Shown here: positions 3,057-14,103 of the stretch, one piece after another
Layout of the letters: every line of letters begins with the position of its first letter
Position numbering within the stretch: the first letter of the stretch is position 1
From: a virus
Virus record (IMG/VR): IMGVR_UViG_3300004461_000154
Coordinates: 1 to 28,744 of that record
Direction: 5' to 3' (one strand)
Length of the DNA stretch: 28,744 nucleotides
Program-made: the position numbers and the translations under genes
Notes under the pieces: model-generated
Database searches by the model: none
What the model saw: the letters and a program-made list of their open reading frames with translations, nothing else
What the model was told of the DNA's origin: nothing

Positions 3057-5427
3057 TTTAATAGGACAAGGCTTATTAGGCCTTATAAAAAAACCACAAC
3101 TAATGAACTCTCTTTTAGCTGGTGGAGCTGCAACAGAAGCAGTTAATCAAGGTCTATTAAGTAAAGACAATCTCATAAATACAGGAAATTTTTTATACAA
3201 TAACCTACAAAATCCATCTATAAGTGCTTTTAGAGATGTTATAGAAACACCTTCCGGAGAAGTATATGCGCCAGATGCTGCGGATATCGAAAGAGAAGCT
3301 GAGTATAATAGAGGATTAGGAACTAATAAAACATTTGCTGATGACATAAAATCAGATCCTTTAATAACTCCTGAAACTGAAAAACTTTCAGGACTTTTAT
3401 CTACTCCAGAAGTAGAGCAGATTGATTACAGTAATGTTACACCTATACCTGAGTCTAGCAAACCTTCTGATTTTATTACAAATTTAGAATCCGATAACAA
3501 ACAACCTAGTTTACTTTTAGATAGGCCTTCATTAGTTGGAGTTGTTGATCAAAAAGAAAATGTAAAACCATCTGACTTATTAAATATATATGAAGTAAAC
3601 AAATCTAGTCAACCTACTGATTGGGAAGAAACAGAAGTTTTAAAAGTTGTAGATGATAAGCCGGTGTATAAAAAAATACCTTATGGTTACAACAATCCTC
3701 CTGAAGATTATGTAGGATCAAATGAAGATTATTTTAATGACATGGTAAATTCTGTTGTTAAGGAAACACAAGATATTTATTTAAGAGCAGAAAGCGGTGA
3801 CAAAGAAGCAATAGCAATTTTAAAACAAAAAAATTGGTATGATAGTCAGGTTCAACAAGGCAGAGAAGAGTTTGGTGGCATGTATGATTTATTAGCTGAC
3901 GTTCTTGGAACTACTTCTGCCAATACTAATGTTCGAGATAATTTTGCAAATGCTACACAAGTTTTAGAAAATTATTCAAAAGGTAAGTATGATGAAGTTA
4001 TTGAAAAATATATCAAAACTTTAGAAAAAGAAAATATTACACCTTTCCAATATGCAAATAAACATATTCAAATTAAAAATAAAAATGGAGCAGAGGCAGC
4101 ACAAAAAAAATATCCTTTATTAAGAAAAATTAATGAAGATGGGTCATTTGGAGCATTGTTTGGCATCAACTCCCCACCAACTATGACTGCCTTGTTAGAT
4201 AAATTCAGAATTTTAAAACAAGGTGGATCTGCTAAAACAATAAATTACACACAGAATTTAGCCGGAGCTGGAAATAATGCTGTTATTGATCTTTGGATGG
4301 CTAGGTATTTAAGAAGATTATCTGGACGAGGTAAAATACCTGTACATGCTGAGAATACTGTCAGTGGAAAAGTTTTAAAAGATAATAAAACTGTTGGTGG
4401 TGAATACGGATTTGGTCAAAAAGTTTTTAATGAAGCAGTTAATAAACTTAAAGAAATAGGTGTAGAAATAGATGCAAAACAGTTACAAGCCTTAAATTGG
4501 TTTAAAGAAAAAGAACTGTGGGCAAAAAATGGCTGGTCACCAGCTTCAGGTGGTTCAATTGAATTTGAAAAAATGTTCTTTGGGTTACCTAAAGAGCTGC
4601 AAGATGAAGTTACAATTAATAGAAAAACAATAGACAGTAGTAAATCCACAGTTGATGAAAAATTTTCAGCTATGGCCAACTTAGATGAAGTCTATTTAAG
4701 AGCTGGTACTGATAGATATATTGTTGGTCTTTCTGGAACTAGACCTTTATTAGAACAAACTTCAGAGCAAGCACTCGATATTAAACAAAGCTTTATTAAT
4801 TTTTTAAAAGATGATCAGGATGTCAGAGCTGTAAAGGTTGTACCTACATTTGGTAAATACTTGGGGAGTAGTGAAACTTCAGTAGATGTTGAGATCGTAA
4901 CTAATAAAAATTATGATAAGAACAAAATTGTTACTAATGCGGTAGGGCAAGCTAAAAAATACGATCAAGACTCAACTTTTGTTTCTAGAGTTATATCAAA
5001 AGATAATTATTCAATAGATGACAACAAAGAAAATTTAAGACCAGGTACTGAAATATATTTTAGTGAAAAATATGATGAAAAAGCTGTTGATGAAATTATT
5101 ACAGTTTTAAATGAAAAAGGTTTTCCTGGTTTTACTTTTATTAAAGATATGAAAGTGCAAGATAATGTAAATCCTGTATTAGGTTTTACAGGAAGAGATG
5201 AATATGTTGGAATTAGAACACAATATATTCCAGAGTACGATGGTTATGAAAATTATAATGAATTACCGAAAGAAGAAAAAGATAAAATTTTTGATGCTCA
5301 ATTAAAAAATTACTCTAATTTAATAGAATTTATAAATGAGAATTATGAAGGTATTTCGTTTTCAGATTTAATGTTTTATGATACAATGATAATAAATAGG
5401 GATAGATACAATGAATATATACGATAA
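3046..5427 (+). CDS. Large 793-aa phage protein, possibly virion-delivered (polyvalent-like)
   Basis: The N-terminus (residues 1-45) is rich in Leu, Gly and Ala (GLLGLIKKPQLMNSLLAGGA), followed by a low-complexity, Pro/Ser/Glu-rich linker to about residue 190. A globular region at about 255-500 contains LADVLGTTSANTNVRDNFAN and NNAVIDLWMARYLRRLSGR (about residues 405-425), then QALNWFKEKELWAKNGW (about 478-495). These stretches resemble a helical domain found in phage 'polyvalent' proteins that are thought to enter the host with DNA. The I-D-x-W-M-x-R context is also weakly like the catalytic loop of HhH-GPD DNA glycosylases; that likeness is speculative. The C-terminal 240 residues are unrecognised. 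It overlaps both neighbours and is the largest gene in the window. Confidence 0.7.
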   Translation: MITNLIGQGLLGLIKKPQLMNSLLAGGAATEAVNQGLLSKDNLINTGNFLYNNLQNPSISAFRDVIETPSGEVYAPDAADIEREAEYNRGLGTNKTFADDIKSDPLITPETEKLSGLLSTPEVEQIDYSNVTPIPESSKPSDFITNLESDNKQPSLLLDRPSLVGVVDQKENVKPSDLLNIYEVNKSSQPTDWEETEVLKVVDDKPVYKKIPYGYNNPPEDYVGSNEDYFNDMVNSVVKETQDIYLRAESGDKEAIAILKQKNWYDSQVQQGREEFGGMYDLLADVLGTTSANTNVRDNFANATQVLENYSKGKYDEVIEKYIKTLEKENITPFQYANKHIQIKNKNGAEAAQKKYPLLRKINEDGSFGALFGINSPPTMTALLDKFRILKQGGSAKTINYTQNLAGAGNNAVIDLWMARYLRRLSGRGKIPVHAENTVSGKVLKDNKTVGGEYGFGQKVFNEAVNKLKEIGVEIDAKQLQALNWFKEKELWAKNGWSPASGGSIEFEKMFFGLPKELQDEVTINRKTIDSSKSTVDEKFSAMANLDEVYLRAGTDRYIVGLSGTRPLLEQTSEQALDIKQSFINFLKDDQDVRAVKVVPTFGKYLGSSETSVDVEIVTNKNYDKNKIVTNAVGQAKKYDQDSTFVSRVISKDNYSIDDNKENLRPGTEIYFSEKYDEKAVDEIITVLNEKGFPGFTFIKDMKVQDNVNPVLGFTGRDEYVGIRTQYIPEYDGYENYNELPKEEKDKIFDAQLKNYSNLIEFINENYEGISFSDLMFYDTMIINRDRYNEYIR

Positions 5428-5605
5428 AGCGATTGCAAGTTTAGAAAAACAAGGTCTTGGTGATGGTGCATTTGCAAAACAATTAAAGAAAAATAAAGAA
5501 CTTGGTTTGCAAAATAAAGGTAAGTCTTTTAGAGAAGTCTATGCTGAAAGAGATTATTTTGAAGTGGGCCACAAAAATAAAAAAGTCAAAAAAAGTCTTT
5601 TATAA
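5411..5605 (+). CDS. Small hypothetical protein, 64 aa
   Basis: A 64-aa basic, helix-prone protein (MNIYDKAIASLEKQGLGDGA at the start, a KKVKKSLL tail). It overlaps the end of the 793-aa gene by 17 bp in another frame and is the last gene of the rightward lysis arm before the convergent junction. No membrane segment or motif is recognised. It might assist the large upstream protein, but only position suggests this. Confidence 0.6.
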   Translation: MNIYDKAIASLEKQGLGDGAFAKQLKKNKELGLQNKGKSFREVYAERDYFEVGHKNKKVKKSLL

Positions 5606-5632: not shown

Positions 5633-5675
5633 AGGGGAGCCTCCTTTGTGTTTGTTACTATGAGGTTGCTCCCCT
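5633..5675 (+). terminator. Convergent-junction hairpin whose loop is antisense to two phage leaders
   Basis: An 8-bp stem AGGGGAGC (5633-5640) pairs with GCTCCCCT (5668-5675), with a 3-bp inner extension (5641-5643 with 5662-5664). The loop runs 5644-5661. It lies between the ends of the rightward and leftward gene runs, as expected for a bidirectional terminator, but the following tract (TTATTTACG) is a poor U-run. The 5' arm and loop contain 5639-5657, identical to 10311-10329 and nearly identical to 6255-6272. Those two copies are the ribosome-binding leaders of minus-strand genes, so a plus-strand RNA here would be complementary to them. Confidence 0.5.
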
Positions 5676-5689
5676 TATTTACGCAACTT

Positions 5690-5887
5690 TCAGTTAGACT
5701 CCATCGGAAAATGTATAGCTGGATGATGAAAAGTTACTTTACCATTATCACTGCTAGGCGCATTTTTCCTTTCGAGTTCTCTTAATTTTATTTGCAGTCT
5801 TTCTAATAGTAATAATAAGTTATCAATCTTTTCATCTTGCTTATTTAATTTTTCTTGAATTGCCAGAGGTAAATGCATAGCTCTCAT
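5690..5887 (-). CDS. Small coiled-coil protein, 65 aa
   Basis: The start is MRAMHLPLAIQEKLNKQDEK, followed by a leucine-rich, heptad-like stretch (about 18-40, IDNLLLLLERLQIKLRELER), so it is probably a short oligomeric coiled coil. The tail contains FHHPAIHFP. A strong GGAGG lies 9 bp before its ATG inside the end of the preceding gene, and only one base separates the two genes, so the pair is co-translated. It is the last leftward gene. Function unknown. Confidence 0.6.
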   Translation of the reverse strand: MRAMHLPLAIQEKLNKQDEKIDNLLLLLERLQIKLRELERKNAPSSDNGKVTFHHPAIHFPMESN

Positions 5888-5888
5888 T

Positions 5889-6248
5889 TTATATTACCTC
5901 CGCAAATCCAAATGCTGCCACTACGTGTTTCTTACCCTGGGGATCAACAACAATGTCACCAACAGAAGCAGAACTCATATTAGAAAATCTTTCGATATTC
6001 TCTTCAGGTCCAATATTGCCTACTTCAAAAACACCATCTAAACCTTTGTCTGTTTTAATGTTTGAAACATGTGTGTAATAATTTTCAGCTAATGCTTTTT
6101 TAACCATTGTAATTAATTCTTCGTTAGCCAGAGTAAACTGCATATCTAAACGCAATTTGTTTTTGTCAAGAGCGTCATGATTTTTTGCAGCATTAAGATA
6201 ATCAATCTCTGTTTGAGTTAATTTTATTTGATGTAGTTCGTATTTCAT
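5889..6248 (-). CDS. Hypothetical protein led by a repeated ribosome-binding leader, 119 aa
   Basis: A 119-aa protein. Residues 1-75 look helical (LTQTEIDYLNAAKNHDALDK). The C-terminal 35 residues (SSASVGDIVVDPQGKKHVVA then AFGFAEV) form a short beta module of a kind common in small phage proteins ('vGDiv...g....v...GF'). It has its own promoter candidate (TATAAT at 6278-6283) and the leader AACAAACACAAAGGAG shared with the gene at 10307. No established function is known to me. Its separate promoter beside the attachment region suggests expression independent of the integrase. Confidence 0.65.
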   Translation of the reverse strand: MKYELHQIKLTQTEIDYLNAAKNHDALDKNKLRLDMQFTLANEELITMVKKALAENYYTHVSNIKTDKGLDGVFEVGNIGPEENIERFSNMSSASVGDIVVDPQGKKHVVAAFGFAEVI

Positions 6249-6254
6249 TAGTGT

Positions 6255-6272
6255 CTCCTTTGTGTTTGTTAC
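6255..6272 (-). repeat. Leader repeat, copy B (ribosome-binding leader)
   Basis: On the minus strand this reads GTAACAAACACAAAGGAG and provides the Shine-Dalgarno sequence for the gene starting at 6248. Seventeen bases are shared with copies at 5640-5657 and 10312-10329. The predicted transcription start from the -10 at 6278-6283 falls at its first bases, so the repeat would be the 5' end of the mRNA. Confidence 0.7.
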
Positions 6273-6427: not shown

Positions 6428-6502
6428 AAGAAACGTTATTTCCCAATACTTTTGTAAGCATGTGTCCTTACGTGTTTTTAAAACTAGCACAAATTTAGCA
6501 CA

Positions 6503-6546
6503 CTCGGTATTGATTATTAATACCCTCGGTATCGATTATTAATACC
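6503..6546. repeat. Two tandem 22-bp repeats, each with an internal dyad
   Basis: Units 6503-6524 and 6525-6546 are adjacent and differ only at the ninth base (T in the first, C in the second). Each contains inverted arms GGTAT and ATACC around an AT-rich spacer; in unit 1 the arms extend to GGTATT/AATACC. A 22-bp period places the sites on about the same DNA face. Their place about 40 bp from the 3' end of the tRNA and near the integrase gene suggests integrase arm-type or excisionase sites. A related dyad, TACCGG/CCGGTA, follows at 6543-6560. Confidence 0.55.
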
Positions 6547-6560
6547 GGGGAATGCCGGTA
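6543..6560 (-). terminator. Hairpin downstream of tRNA-Thr
   Basis: TACCGG (6543-6548) and CCGGTA (6555-6560) form a 6-bp stem with a 6-nt loop, about 26 nt past the tRNA 3' end on the minus strand, followed there by UUAAUAAU. It could stop or protect the tRNA transcript, but the U-run is weak and a DNA-binding role is equally possible. Confidence 0.3.
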
Positions 6561-6585: not shown

Positions 6586-6660
6586 TGGTGCTGATGAGAA
6601 GAATCAAACTTCCTACTTCCATATTACCAATATGGCACTCTACCAATGAGTTACACCAGC
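6586..6660 (-). tRNA. tRNA-Thr(GGU), complete, CCA encoded
   Basis: Read on the minus strand it folds into a full cloverleaf of 75 nt: acceptor GCTGGTG with CATCAGC (one G-U pair), D stem ACTC/GAGT with loop ATTGGTA, anticodon stem CCATA/TATGG with loop TTGGTAA (anticodon GGT), variable loop AAGTA, T stem GGAAG/CTTCT with loop TTTGATT, discriminator A and CCA at 6588-6586. All arms are intact, so this is a whole gene and not only the 3' piece that phages usually carry in attP. The T loop begins TTTGA where TTCGA/TTCAA is usual. Its 5' end is 5 bp from the integrase stop. Confidence 0.92.
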
Positions 6661-6665
6661 ATAGC

Positions 6666-7598
6666 TTATAAATGATTTATTGCCTGTATTTTTCTTTCAT
6701 TAACAACTTTAGCATAACGTAATGCCATTTTTTCTGTTTGCCAACCACCTACTGCCATCATAGTTTTTAGATCTGTATTTTGTATCATCTTAGTAGCAAA
6801 CGTATGTCTAAACTTATGTGGATTAGTTTTTACCCCAGATAGATCTTGCATTTTTTTCCAAGGCCTTTTGATCGTATGTCTAGATGAGTATGGAAATACT
6901 TTTCCTACAGCTGGCGTACCCAGCTCTAATTTTAATTTAGGATGGATTGGAATGTATTTATATTTTTTTGTTTTTGTCATAAAGACTGCAATTTCTTGTT
7001 TATCATAATTTATATCTTTCCACTCTATATTGACAGCTTCGGATATTCTGCATCCCGTATAATATAAAAAGCATACTAATGGTTTTATCTTGCCGGAATG
7101 TTCTATTAATTTATAAACTTCTTCATCAGTATGATAAGTAATTAAAGATTCATCTTCTGGATATTTTTGTATTGTTAAAGTATTTAGTTTTAATTTTCTA
7201 AGTTGGACATTAACAATTGCTTGTATAGAAGCTGTGCATCGATTAATGCTAGAGTTTTTTAAGCCTGACGATAAGCATGCTTTAATATTTTCATTAAAGT
7301 TTGGTGTAACCTTATCAATCAATAAATGTCCATATACATCTGTAACTTTTTTAATTTGTACTTGTAGGTCACTGTCAAGATTTTTTATATTGATATATTC
7401 GCTTGCAGACTTTTCAAGATTAGGTAAATGTTTTTTTATACCTTTAGATTGATTAAGATATTCATTTTCTTCTTCTCTTAATTTTTCTTCGGCTAATTTT
7501 TTTATCGTCTCTCCTGAAGATATTCTAATTTGCTTTCCGTCAATTGATCCTGTGATTTGCCAGACTTTTCCACCAGGTCTTCTTTTGAGTTTAAACAT
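6666..7598 (-). CDS. int: Tyrosine site-specific recombinase (integrase)
   Basis: A 310-aa phage integrase. The N-terminus (1-50) looks like a small arm-binding beta domain. A core-binding helical region follows (about 60-145), then the catalytic domain from about 150. The visible catalytic set is R184 (TGCRISEA), K209/K211 (TKTKK), H261 and R264 (HKFRH), W286 in the His/Trp position (GGWQTEK) and the nucleophile Y295 (LRYAKV). All are present, so it should be active for integration and excision. It lies 5 bp from tRNA-Thr, its likely target. Its start overlaps the excisionase candidate by 97 bp and lacks a strong Shine-Dalgarno sequence, so translation may be coupled or a slightly later start used. 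Confidence 0.93.
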   Translation of the reverse strand: MFKLKRRPGGKVWQITGSIDGKQIRISSGETIKKLAEEKLREEENEYLNQSKGIKKHLPNLEKSASEYINIKNLDSDLQVQIKKVTDVYGHLLIDKVTPNFNENIKACLSSGLKNSSINRCTASIQAIVNVQLRKLKLNTLTIQKYPEDESLITYHTDEEVYKLIEHSGKIKPLVCFLYYTGCRISEAVNIEWKDINYDKQEIAVFMTKTKKYKYIPIHPKLKLELGTPAVGKVFPYSSRHTIKRPWKKMQDLSGVKTNPHKFRHTFATKMIQNTDLKTMMAVGGWQTEKMALRYAKVVNERKIQAINHL

Positions 7599-8425: not shown

Positions 8426-8793
8426 TGATTGTGTATGATATTTCCATATCTATCATAATTTGGATTATCTCGAGCTGCATCGTTTTCTCTTTCTGCTCTT
8501 AAATCAACTTCATTATTTGCAGCTGGACTATCATTAGATTTGTTAATTTGTGTTATCTCTGGATGATTATTTATATAATCAATAATTACAACTTGTAATC
8601 CACGATCAACAATATTTAAATAACAACTTTCAGTACCATGTAATGTTTCTTGCATTTTTAAACTAAAATATTTTTTACCGGATTTACTTTCGTTGATGTA
8701 CATCTTACCAAAAGATTTATTAAATCCATTTACGTCTTTTTCATCTTTGGACACTATGTTAAATATTGGTTTACTTGGTATAAAATCAGTCAT
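8422..8793 (-). CDS. Hypothetical protein in recombination operon, SSB candidate
   Basis: A 123-aa protein. The first 70 residues look beta-rich (FGKMYINESKSGKKYFSLKM, YLNIVDRGLQVVIIDYI) and the last 45 are disordered and acidic (EVDLRAERENDAARDNPNYD). A small beta domain with an acidic tail next to an ERF annealing protein fits a single-stranded-DNA-binding role, but no SSB motif is definite. Its ends overlap the HNH gene (ATGA) and the ERF gene by 8 bp. Confidence 0.5.
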   Translation of the reverse strand: MTDFIPSKPIFNIVSKDEKDVNGFNKSFGKMYINESKSGKKYFSLKMQETLHGTESCYLNIVDRGLQVVIIDYINNHPEITQINKSNDSPAANNEVDLRAERENDAARDNPNYDRYGNIIHNQ

Positions 8794-9472
8794 TCTTTAC
8801 TCCTTTTGGTGTGCTAACGTTTACTACTGTTTTTTCTTGTTCTTTGTATCTGGTTGAATAGCCTGTCTTCTTATCTGTCTCACTGTCAAGACTTTCTACT
8901 TCAACTTTTTCGCCTGTCGCAATTGAAAATCTTTTTCTATAATATTGCTTTAGCATATAGCTTTGTGCAGTACCTTTAGAAACTGCTCCATTATATGGCA
9001 CAGTCTGATACTCAGTACTTACATATTGCCAAGTGTCTTCACCGCAAGATAAAATTACTTTGTAAATCATATGTAGGTCCATGCCCTTACCAGATACAGG
9101 TACAATTTTATGTTCTACTTCATCAACAGTAACAACTAATCCTGACTTCGCTAGTAAAGGACCAACCATTGCTAAAACGCTATCTACAGACATGTACTTG
9201 TAGCCTTGAAAAGTATTACTACCATCTTTAGGTATTGGCTTAATTCCTTCTGTAACTTGTTTAATAGCATCAGAAATTGATTTAGGCATTGAAGGAATAG
9301 TATTAGACTTTGGTCTTCCATGAACTTCAGCTTCTACTAACTCTTGCCAATCCATCTTTAGTCTTTCGTAATCGTACTTCAATCTTGCATTATCATTCTT
9401 ATGAGCTTCTATTTTTTGCTCTAAGACATACACTTCATCTTCTGCTGTTTTTTTGTGTTGTAAGTCTATCAT
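8786..9472 (-). CDS. erf: ERF-family single-strand annealing protein
   Basis: A 228-aa protein. An N-terminal coiled coil (about 5-50) leads to the ERF core at about 60-190: ISDAIKQVTEGIKPIPKDGS, FQGYKYMSVDSVLAMVGPLL, then KGTAQSYMLKQYYRKRFSIA. The 'yky.s.d.v...v.p.L...gl' and 'S.gt.aqsY..Ry.l...f.i.tge' signatures are those of P22 Erf-like recombinases, which anneal complementary single strands during phage recombination or circularisation. It directly follows a PD-(D/E)XK nuclease gene (4-bp overlap), its likely exonuclease partner. Confidence 0.88.
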   Translation of the reverse strand: MIDLQHKKTAEDEVYVLEQKIEAHKNDNARLKYDYERLKMDWQELVEAEVHGRPKSNTIPSMPKSISDAIKQVTEGIKPIPKDGSNTFQGYKYMSVDSVLAMVGPLLAKSGLVVTVDEVEHKIVPVSGKGMDLHMIYKVILSCGEDTWQYVSTEYQTVPYNGAVSKGTAQSYMLKQYYRKRFSIATGEKVEVESLDSETDKKTGYSTRYKEQEKTVVNVSTPKGVKND

Positions 9473-10134
9473 TTAACTTTTGATCCTTTCTTTTTTAAAA
9501 GTTTTTTTACTTTGTTTTTTGAATTTAATGTTTGAAGCATTAATAAAAAATGATCAAAACATTTGTTTAGGTCGGATTTGTCATAAGCTCTTATTTCAAA
9601 ATCCTTGTCGTCTTCTTTTTTACCAAACCTGGCAAGTAAAAATTTATCTACAATTATATTTTCTGAAATTTGTAGTAAATGTGAGTAAGCGCCAGCTTGC
9701 AAAATATTGTCTAATTTAATTTGTGATGAAGTTTTGTAATCCACTAATATAAATTCATTATCTTTTTTTAATAATAAATCTAAGGTGCCTCCAAAACGAT
9801 AAGTTGGTGATACTAGTGACAGCTCTGTGTTAACAATTTCATACTCAGTCATATCTGCATCCCACCATTTTTTAAATTTACTAAAACAATGAGATGTCTC
9901 TACATGTTGAAAATCATTTAATATTTCACTGTCCTTAACATAAGCCTCAGCAGCATCATGAAATTCTGTTCCAATAGACTGCGCAGTTTGTAACTCAGAA
10001 AAGTAATCTATGTCTTGTTTTCCAAGCCTGTTGGCCCAGATAAGTAGACCTTTAGACTCATTAATAGCATCATTTAAAATGTCGGTTGTTCTATAACAAG
10101 CTTCACCATCAACTTGATATTCTATTTGTGCCAT
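9469..10134 (-). CDS. PD-(D/E)XK exonuclease (RecB/Cas4-like)
   Basis: A 221-aa nuclease. Motifs in order are GTEFH (55-59), E104 in a strand, GGTLD (115-119, D119), ILVDYKTS (129-136; D132 and K134) and QAGAY (146-150). These match the RecB/Cas4-type PD-(D/E)XK fold with the QxxxY motif. Together with the ERF protein it probably resects double-strand ends and hands the single strand to the annealing protein, like the lambda Exo/Beta pair. The C-terminus is very basic (KNKVKKLLKKKGSKVK). No Cas genes or CRISPR array are nearby, so a CRISPR role is not supported. It is coupled by TAATG to the small gene upstream. Confidence 0.85.
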   Translation of the reverse strand: MAQIEYQVDGEACYRTTDILNDAINESKGLLIWANRLGKQDIDYFSELQTAQSIGTEFHDAAEAYVKDSEILNDFQHVETSHCFSKFKKWWDADMTEYEIVNTELSLVSPTYRFGGTLDLLLKKDNEFILVDYKTSSQIKLDNILQAGAYSHLLQISENIIVDKFLLARFGKKEDDKDFEIRAYDKSDLNKCFDHFLLMLQTLNSKNKVKKLLKKKGSKVK

Positions 10135-10307
10135 TAACTAACTACGAACCTTAAAAGTTGAAACAACATAATTAAAAATAGTGAGTAGAAAACAAATTTT
10201 AAAATACTATCCGCATTAAAAAGTCTTTTAAATTTGTGATTATCCTTATAAATATAAGGTTTTATTGCATTGGTCGTCTGTGCAATATGAAGATTAATAT
10301 ACTTCAT
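10134..10307 (-). CDS. Small single-span membrane protein, 57 aa
   Basis: Starts MKYINLHIAQTTNAIKPYIY. One strongly hydrophobic stretch near the end (about 36-55, ILKFVFYSLFLIMLFQLLRF) is probably a membrane helix with a charged N-terminal cytoplasmic part. AAAGGAGG lies 4-5 bp before the ATG within the repeated leader. The stop overlaps the nuclease start (TAATG), so it is the first gene of the recombination operon and may couple its translation. Role unknown; a superinfection or membrane-anchoring function would be a guess. Confidence 0.7.
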   Translation of the reverse strand: MKYINLHIAQTTNAIKPYIYKDNHKFKRLFNADSILKFVFYSLFLIMLFQLLRFVVS

Positions 10308-10310
10308 GGT

Positions 10311-10329
10311 GCCTCCTTTGTGTTTGTTA
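10311..10329 (-). repeat. Leader repeat, copy C (ribosome-binding leader)
   Basis: On the minus strand TAACAAACACAAAGGAGGC forms the ribosome-binding leader of the small membrane-protein gene. All 19 bases are identical to 5639-5657 and 17 match 6255-6271. As with copy B, it lies directly downstream of a predicted -10 element. Confidence 0.7.
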
Positions 10330-11029: not shown

Positions 11030-11084
11030 TTTAACTCCATTTATTTCGACACCAAGATAACACGTTTAATACACAAAAGTAAAC

Positions 11085-11096
11085 AATATTTCTATA
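11085..11096 (+). promoter_or_regulatory. Candidate operator, copy 3
   Basis: Exact AATATTTCTATA in the divergent region between the repressor candidate and the LexA-type HTH gene. With the inverted copy at 11135-11146 (11 of 12 matching) it brackets a possible rightward promoter; the two centres are 50 bp apart. Confidence 0.45.
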
Positions 11097-11119
11097 CGTA
11101 CATAAATAAGCTATATTAA
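11091..11119 (+). promoter_or_regulatory. Possible early rightward promoter
   Basis: TTTCTA (overlapping the candidate operator) and TATATT near 11114-11119 are separated by 17 bp. The -35 is weak. An alternative, downstream, is the extended -10 TGTTATAGT at about 11202-11210. Confidence 0.3.
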
Positions 11120-11134
11120 TCCTATATTTTTCAA

Positions 11135-11146
11135 TATAGAAATAAT
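11135..11146 (-). promoter_or_regulatory. Candidate operator, copy 4 (inverted)
   Basis: Plus-strand TATAGAAATAAT is the reverse complement of the copy at 11085-11096 with one mismatch. It lies just before the 32-codon leader ORF. A partial copy (TTTCTATA) follows at 11160-11167. Confidence 0.4.
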
Positions 11147-11147
11147 T

Positions 11148-11246
11148 ATGCGAAGTTATTTTCTATATGATGTTCTCCGAGTCCTCCTAATAGCTTCGCT
11201 ATGTTATAGTCATAATGTCATGAGGTCGTGTAGTAGGGCCTCATGA
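11148..11246 (+). CDS. Possible 32-aa leader peptide
   Basis: An ORF starting MRSYFLYDVLRVLLIASLCY and ending 17 bp into the following hairpin. Its TGA overlaps the ATG of the LexA-type gene (ATGA). The Shine-Dalgarno sequence is weak. If translated, ribosomes would open the hairpin at 11217-11247 that buries the next start codon, so it may act as a coupling leader. It may equally be chance. Confidence 0.35.
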   Translation: MRSYFLYDVLRVLLIASLCYSHNVMRSCSRAS

Positions 11247-11247
11247 C
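11217..11247 (+). promoter_or_regulatory. Hairpin burying a start codon
   Basis: GTCATGAGG (11217-11225) and CCTCATGAC (11239-11247) form a perfect 9-bp stem with a 13-nt loop. The ATG at 11243-11245 lies inside the 3' arm. Such a structure in mRNA would hinder initiation unless it is melted or bound. A smaller dyad, ATAGC/GCTAT, precedes it at 11190-11202. As DNA either could also be an operator. Confidence 0.55.
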
Positions 11248-13757: not shown

Positions 13758-13830
13758 GTAGAACTCTAAGGTCCTAGTTTATCTTAGATATATATAGAGA
13801 GATAGAGAGGTAGTAGTAATAGATCGAATT

Positions 13831-13989
13831 ATGATGAAATTGTATTTAAACATTGTTGAATATGTAGAAAAGCTTATGGTTGTATTGCATAAGCTATGTC
13901 TTAAAACCATTGAGTTTATTAAGAAGGTTATGAGTTTTCTCTTTTCTGTCATCAAGTCTATATATAGTATGTTATTCAATCGCCTATAA
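13831..13989 (+). CDS. Possible 52-aa amphipathic peptide
   Basis: Starts MMKLYLNIVEYVEKLMVVLH and ends FSVIKSIYSMLFNRL. Hydrophobic and lysine residues alternate through the whole peptide, suggesting one or two amphipathic helices that could lie on a membrane. GAGAGG lies about 24 bp upstream, too far for a normal ribosome site, so translation is uncertain. It fills part of the 387-bp gap between terS and the next clear gene. Confidence 0.35.
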   Translation: MMKLYLNIVEYVEKLMVVLHKLCLKTIEFIKKVMSFLFSVIKSIYSMLFNRL

Positions 13990-14029
13990 TGAATATTATG
14001 CGACAATCTAGAATCGTTGTATATCAAGG

Positions 14030-14103
14030 GTTCTGACTGTTGCATTTTTGCAACATCTAAGGCATACTACATATGGTATGCAACCCCATCGGGGTCGTAG
14101 AAC
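14030..14103 (+). ncRNA. Compact four-way-junction (cloverleaf-like) element
   Basis: A closing stem GTTCT(14030-14034)/AGAAC(14099-14103), extended by AC(14036-14037)/GT(14097-14098) with one bulged G, encloses three hairpins. Arm 1 is TGTTGCA/TGCAACA, 7 bp with a TTTT loop (14038-14055). Arm 2 is GCATAC/GTATGC, 6 bp with an 8-nt loop (14062-14081). Arm 3 is ACCCC/GGGGT, 5 bp with a 3-nt loop (14083-14095). It is 74 nt, tRNA-sized but not a tRNA. It may be a structured RNA, a control element for the gene at 14145, or a DNA packaging site, given its place between terS and terL. Confidence 0.55.

Follow-up and report, generated by a model that had tools for sequence, protein, structure and literature searches.

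The locus at positions 5633-5675 of this viral genome raises the question of why the leader that precedes two leftward operons recurs a third time, with no gene behind it, in the loop of a strong hairpin between two convergent operons. The window, a stretch of 28,744 nt analysed in full, comes from an IMG/VR viral contig. This contig has capsid and portal genes of the SU10 type, and its TerL shares about 45% identity with the TerL of HTVC010P-type pelagiphages; the rightward arm carries metallophosphatase and lysozyme genes. The leftward operon from 10307 is ordered 57-aa ORF, Exo, Erf, small genes and integrase (Table 1). As the stop codon of the 57-aa ORF overlaps the start of exo (TAATG), translation of this ORF probably drives that of exo.

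Several other elements were noted around these operons. Directly behind the integrase gene stands a complete tRNA-Thr (GGT) with encoded CCA (6586-6660), a possible attP or phage tRNA; a search of the genome contigs with its 3' end gave no match. Adjoining both tRNA and integrase, tandem 22-nt repeats around TCGGTATNGATTATTAATACC (6495-6550) may represent arm sites for the integrase or the binding site of a regulator. The divergent control region holds a perfect 9-bp inverted repeat, GTCATGAGG...CCTCATGAC (11217-11247), whose right arm includes the start codon (11243) of a LexA-type HTH gene, making it a candidate operator or start-sequestering hairpin. Further right, the 315 nt that precede the ORF at 14073 (13758-14072) have no gene assigned and are well structured, with a plus-strand fold of -75 kcal/mol; the 50-nt window starting at 13996 ranks among the most stable.

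Table 1. Coordinates of the leader copies, the hairpin and the neighbouring genes
Feature	Position	Strand	Remarks
64-aa ORF, last of rightward lysis/late arm	5411..5605	+	convergent with cassette
Hairpin 5' stem arm, AGGGGAGC	5633..5640	+	from fold; strongest local structure
Third leader copy, TAACAAACACAAAGGAGGC	5639..5657	-	then TCCCCTAAG, no start codon
27-nt loop	5641..5667	+	first 18 nt = leader copy; weak inner pairing CCUU/GAGG
Hairpin 3' stem arm, GCTCCCCT	5668..5675	+	from fold
Weak U-tract after stem, TATTTACG	5676..5683	+ only	from sequence
65-aa gene, last of cassette before hairpin	5690..5887	-	no family match
119-aa gene, first of leftward cassette	5889..6248	-	no named family
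Leader of gene starting at 6248, GTAACAAACACAAAGGAG	6255..6272	-	TATAAT upstream at 6283-6278
Tyrosine integrase, last gene of leftward operon	6666..7598	-	
Erf-type single-strand annealing protein	8786..9472	-	
PD-(D/E)XK exonuclease (Exo)	9469..10134	-	
57-aa ORF, hydrophobic C-terminal stretch, first of recombination/integration operon	10134..10307	-	
Leader of gene starting at 10307, TAACAAACACAAAGGAGGC	10311..10329	-	weak -10-like TAAAGT at 10340-10335

Three copies of a ribosome-binding leader

Sequence comparison confirmed both repeat identities that the initial annotation had reported: GCCTCCTTTGTGTTTGTTA is present at 5639 and 10311 (5639-5657 and 10311-10329, 19 nt identical), and CTCCTTTGTGTTTGTTAC at 5641 and 6255 (5641-5658 and 6255-6272, 18 nt identical). 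All three copies share one orientation, those at 5639 and 6255 being direct repeats that flank the two-gene cassette encoding the 119-aa and 65-aa proteins. No exact repeat in the window exceeds this leader family in length; the family includes the sole 17-mer present three times and accounts for all repeated 18- and 19-mers. Across the whole 29,093-nt record, the 17-nt core TAACAAACACAAAGGAG (minus strand) occurs exactly three times, and allowing two mismatches revealed no further copy. Shine-Dalgarno (SD) leaders are alike in composition, and a chance repeat of one purine-rich leader might be imagined; it is very improbable and was rejected, given that random sequence of the same composition is expected to hold 0.09 repeated 18-mers and 0.03 repeated 19-mers per sequence (100 Markov-1 sequences) and that the next most similar annotated leader agrees at only 13 of 17 positions.

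Two of the copies are indeed, as annotated, the SD leaders of minus-strand genes starting at 10307 and 6248. Each of these leaders begins roughly at the putative transcription start and extends to the SD; they have the 17-mer plus RCAC in common, while their upstream sequences and genes differ. Since the flanks of the repeat carry no convincing similarity, the shared unit, as far as the sequence indicates, is the leader itself. The transcription starts predicted near both leaders found partial support: by eye, a perfect TATAAT precedes the one and a weak TAAAGT the other (Table 1), but a promoter scan with a threshold of a 9-of-12 match lists neither.

The copy at 5639 does not have the form of a functional leader, for which we expected a start codon 5-9 nt after the SD: its GGAG is followed by GCTCCCCTAAG, without a start codon, and the promoter scan gave no recognisable -10 or -35. 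That no minus-strand promoter or gene follows this copy had been claimed before and is borne out, and a minus-strand gene behind it was rejected because the start codon is missing. Beyond the repeat, we found no similarity to the 6248 start. Behind the copy, 7/11 bases agree with the start of the 10307 gene (CC...AAGTA), a likeness with a P of only about 0.02-0.04 without correction for the several comparisons made; it would fit a duplicated leader, and we do not rely on it.

Recurrence of the same 17 nt in two leaders despite different promoters and genes could also mark a recognition site, bound by a phage or host factor that is either a DNA-binding regulator acting just after the start site or an RNA-binding translational regulator. 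The third copy would then serve as an additional site or as a decoy, acting either at the DNA level or within the 3' UTR that the cassette operon has on the minus strand, and candidate regulators lie close by, namely a 203-aa gene in repressor-like position and the LexA-type HTH gene. We nevertheless regard such a site as unlikely. The element is not palindromic, the SD inside it is enough to account for part of its conservation, and there is no copy at the divergent control region (11030-11242), where the main operator would be expected.

Hairpin at the convergent junction and its possible antisense role

Folding bore out the annotated hairpin with an 8-bp stem at the end of the rightward lysis arm and the copy mainly in its loop. 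It occupies the 84-nt gap between the rightward lysis/late arm and the leftward cassette. The stem (5633-5640/5668-5675) consists of eight Watson-Crick pairs and takes in bases 5639-5640, with which the 19-nt copy opens, the remainder of the copy lying in the loop. With predicted energies of -22.8 kcal/mol on the plus strand (z -5.2) and -19.8 on the minus strand (z-scores about -5), the hairpin is the most stable 50-nt stretch in the window. Judged as an intrinsic terminator, it has the G+C-rich stem, a loop of 27 nt and a weak T-tract, TATTT. Intrinsic terminators between convergent phage operons likewise place a G+C-rich stem in the gap, but they combine a short loop with a T run, and our terminator scan, whose criteria admit loops of 3-8 only, missed the 5633-5675 stem. 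The hairpin is most likely a terminator-like structure between two convergent operons.

The initial annotation had proposed that a plus-strand transcript could act here as an antisense switch. In the scheme as we develop it, the hairpin forms the 3' end of the rightward late transcript or of a short RNA cut from that end, and the hairpin loop base-pairs with the complete 5' leaders of the 6248 and 10307 mRNAs and blocks their ribosome sites; the cassette would be shut off late in infection, as would the exo/erf/int operon via translational coupling, for which the TAATG overlap between the 57-aa ORF and exo provides. We consider a trans-acting antisense RNA of this kind a serious possibility, though not the favoured one. 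Its anatomy stood up well: complementarity to the two leaders is perfect over 19 and 18 bp and includes the SD, both leaders are mostly unpaired in their predicted folds, the third copy has no leader function of its own, and the hairpin, the strongest in the window, folds better on the plus strand and has its T-rich tail there only. Identity is also limited to the leader and excludes promoter and coding DNA, as expected for a constraint at the RNA level. In the RNA-RNA interaction prediction that had been suggested, the plus-strand loop pairs with both leaders, with duplexes of -36.9 kcal/mol for the 10307 leader and -29.4 kcal/mol for the 6248 leader against -19.0 kcal/mol for the next best among 45 gene starts. 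These energies follow from the identity of the sequences and so do not separate a functional antisense RNA from a relic.

Other features argue against such a switch. We found no convincing dedicated promoter on the plus strand just upstream of the hairpin. The complementarity of the loop is exact as claimed, but its exposure is only partial: in the plus-strand RNA, CCUU (5643-5646) is predicted to pair with GAGG, which partly closes the loop and hides most of the anti-SD part. Among Rfam families, including C4, only the tRNA matched at the gathering score; sub-threshold matches to microRNA and Listeria families at a loose cut-off were taken as chance.

Phage RNAs with comparable action are known. 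The c4 RNA of P1 and P7 blocks translation of a target whose ribosome-binding region it complements, with the pairing sequences probably in loops (PMC12197685), and an RNA from the hairpin studied here would resemble it. The target of c4 is, however, the antirepressor gene ant, whereas here there would be two unlinked targets of other function, and the RNA is putative and has no Rfam match at the gathering score. The sar RNA of P22, 68/69 nt long, binds ant mRNA by base pairing and hinders the initiation of its translation (PMC12197685); the putative hairpin RNA could be similar in size, but again it would have other targets, and two of them. Phage Phi24B encodes 24B_1, a 20-nt RNA that apparently arises by cleavage of a longer transcript and is reported to influence lysogeny (PMC4426718); unlike the putative RNA considered here, 24B_1 was experimentally detected.

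Relatives and the 119-aa gene family

Close relatives covering the regions around positions 5.6 or 10.3 kb were found neither in the viral contigs and genome contigs nor among the phages searched. The exact core occurs in 25 stretches of IMG/VR, none of them from a related phage. Queries with the integrase (viral and genome contigs), Exo and Erf returned no relative, the 793-aa protein gave relatives of about 30% only, and blastn of the hairpin region against phages produced insignificant matches only. The TerL query retrieved contigs of the same species (L052 and L053), which end short of the hairpin/leader region.

For the 119-aa gene, the query returned only relatives of 57-58% identity, lacking this leader. 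Overall, 106 homologs were confirmed among viral contigs, which reach 221 kb in length, and identity across the 80 loci retained is 48-65%; the family (L057-L135) has no match in Pfam, PHROGs or NCBIfam. In many of the homolog loci that were read, the gene is preceded by a brief promoter-like stretch and by an A-rich leader, also short, that contains an SD; none of these leaders has the exact sequence seen in this phage. Ordinary short-loop terminators stand behind the gene in two homolog loci. Given that this first gene of the cassette is widespread and has different flanking genes in other marine phages, the 119-aa/65-aa cassette is probably mobile. No relative with an empty cassette site was found.

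Sharing of a leader between genes was seen elsewhere. In L033, an identical 20-nt leader plus start codon, TTTAAGGAGGTAGCATAATG, precedes two genes 764 nt apart (1455-1474 and 2219-2238), an arrangement also present in L071, and 16 nt of leader are common to two genes in L081 and L083. None of these four contigs has a loop copy, so shared leaders by themselves are unremarkable; such leader-to-leader sharing fits a copy produced by recombination. A search of a few distant relatives (four pelagiphage genomes and six partial viral contigs) for 13-mers of gene leaders that recur in a hairpin loop elsewhere found none, which counts against an antisense role. Hairpins do occur at the convergent junctions of some relatives, e.g. 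L137 and L139, in keeping with a terminator that happened to capture a leader.

Origin of the third copy and its significance

The explanation we tentatively prefer is that the 5639 copy was left behind by module recombination and caught in a convergent terminator. It would be a promoterless, start-less duplicate of the leader that serves the two leftward operons. Recombination at the leader would have accompanied gain or loss of the 119-aa/65-aa cassette, or of a gene formerly behind the third copy, and would have retained only the leader at 5639, without its promoter or start codon. Late transcription of the rightward arm would terminate at the hairpin, and pairing of the resulting transcript with both leaders would be a by-product. 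We infer a recombination origin and a terminator role, with no selected antisense role.

Several observations favour this origin: the common orientation of all copies, two of which flank one two-gene cassette; the probable mobility of the first cassette gene; the absence of a start codon and promoter match at the third copy; and the presence of Exo and Erf in the phage. Relaxed recombination by Rad52-like phage recombinases is the topic of a published study (PMC3945230). The boundary or linker sequences of mosaic temperate phages are similarly short identical sequences at module edges, although the repeat in this phage consists of a gene leader and has one of its copies in a hairpin. Against a relic stands first the loop copy itself, which is perfect over 18-19 nt between flanks without convincing similarity, where an old relic should have drifted. 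The long loop and weak U-tract make a poor intrinsic terminator, no donor was seen among the 119-aa homologs, which lack the exact leader, and of all places in the 84-nt gap the leader would have to lie in the loop by coincidence.

On balance, we place a recombination relic slightly above a trans-acting antisense RNA, the two being nearly tied. The orphan leader and module-boundary repeat that the initial annotation had offered as alternatives to its switch fit the data equally well. The full regulatory claim, in which late transcription of a temperate marine phage itself silences integration/recombination and the accessory cassette in trans through the loop antisense, appears to us somewhat doubtful.

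If the leader copy is a relic, it would be a neat footprint of leader-mediated module exchange in an otherwise ordinary junction. If the antisense RNA is real, a phage that infects uncultured marine bacteria would have a simple RNA link from late transcription back to its genes for integration and recombination, with one loop acting on two targets.
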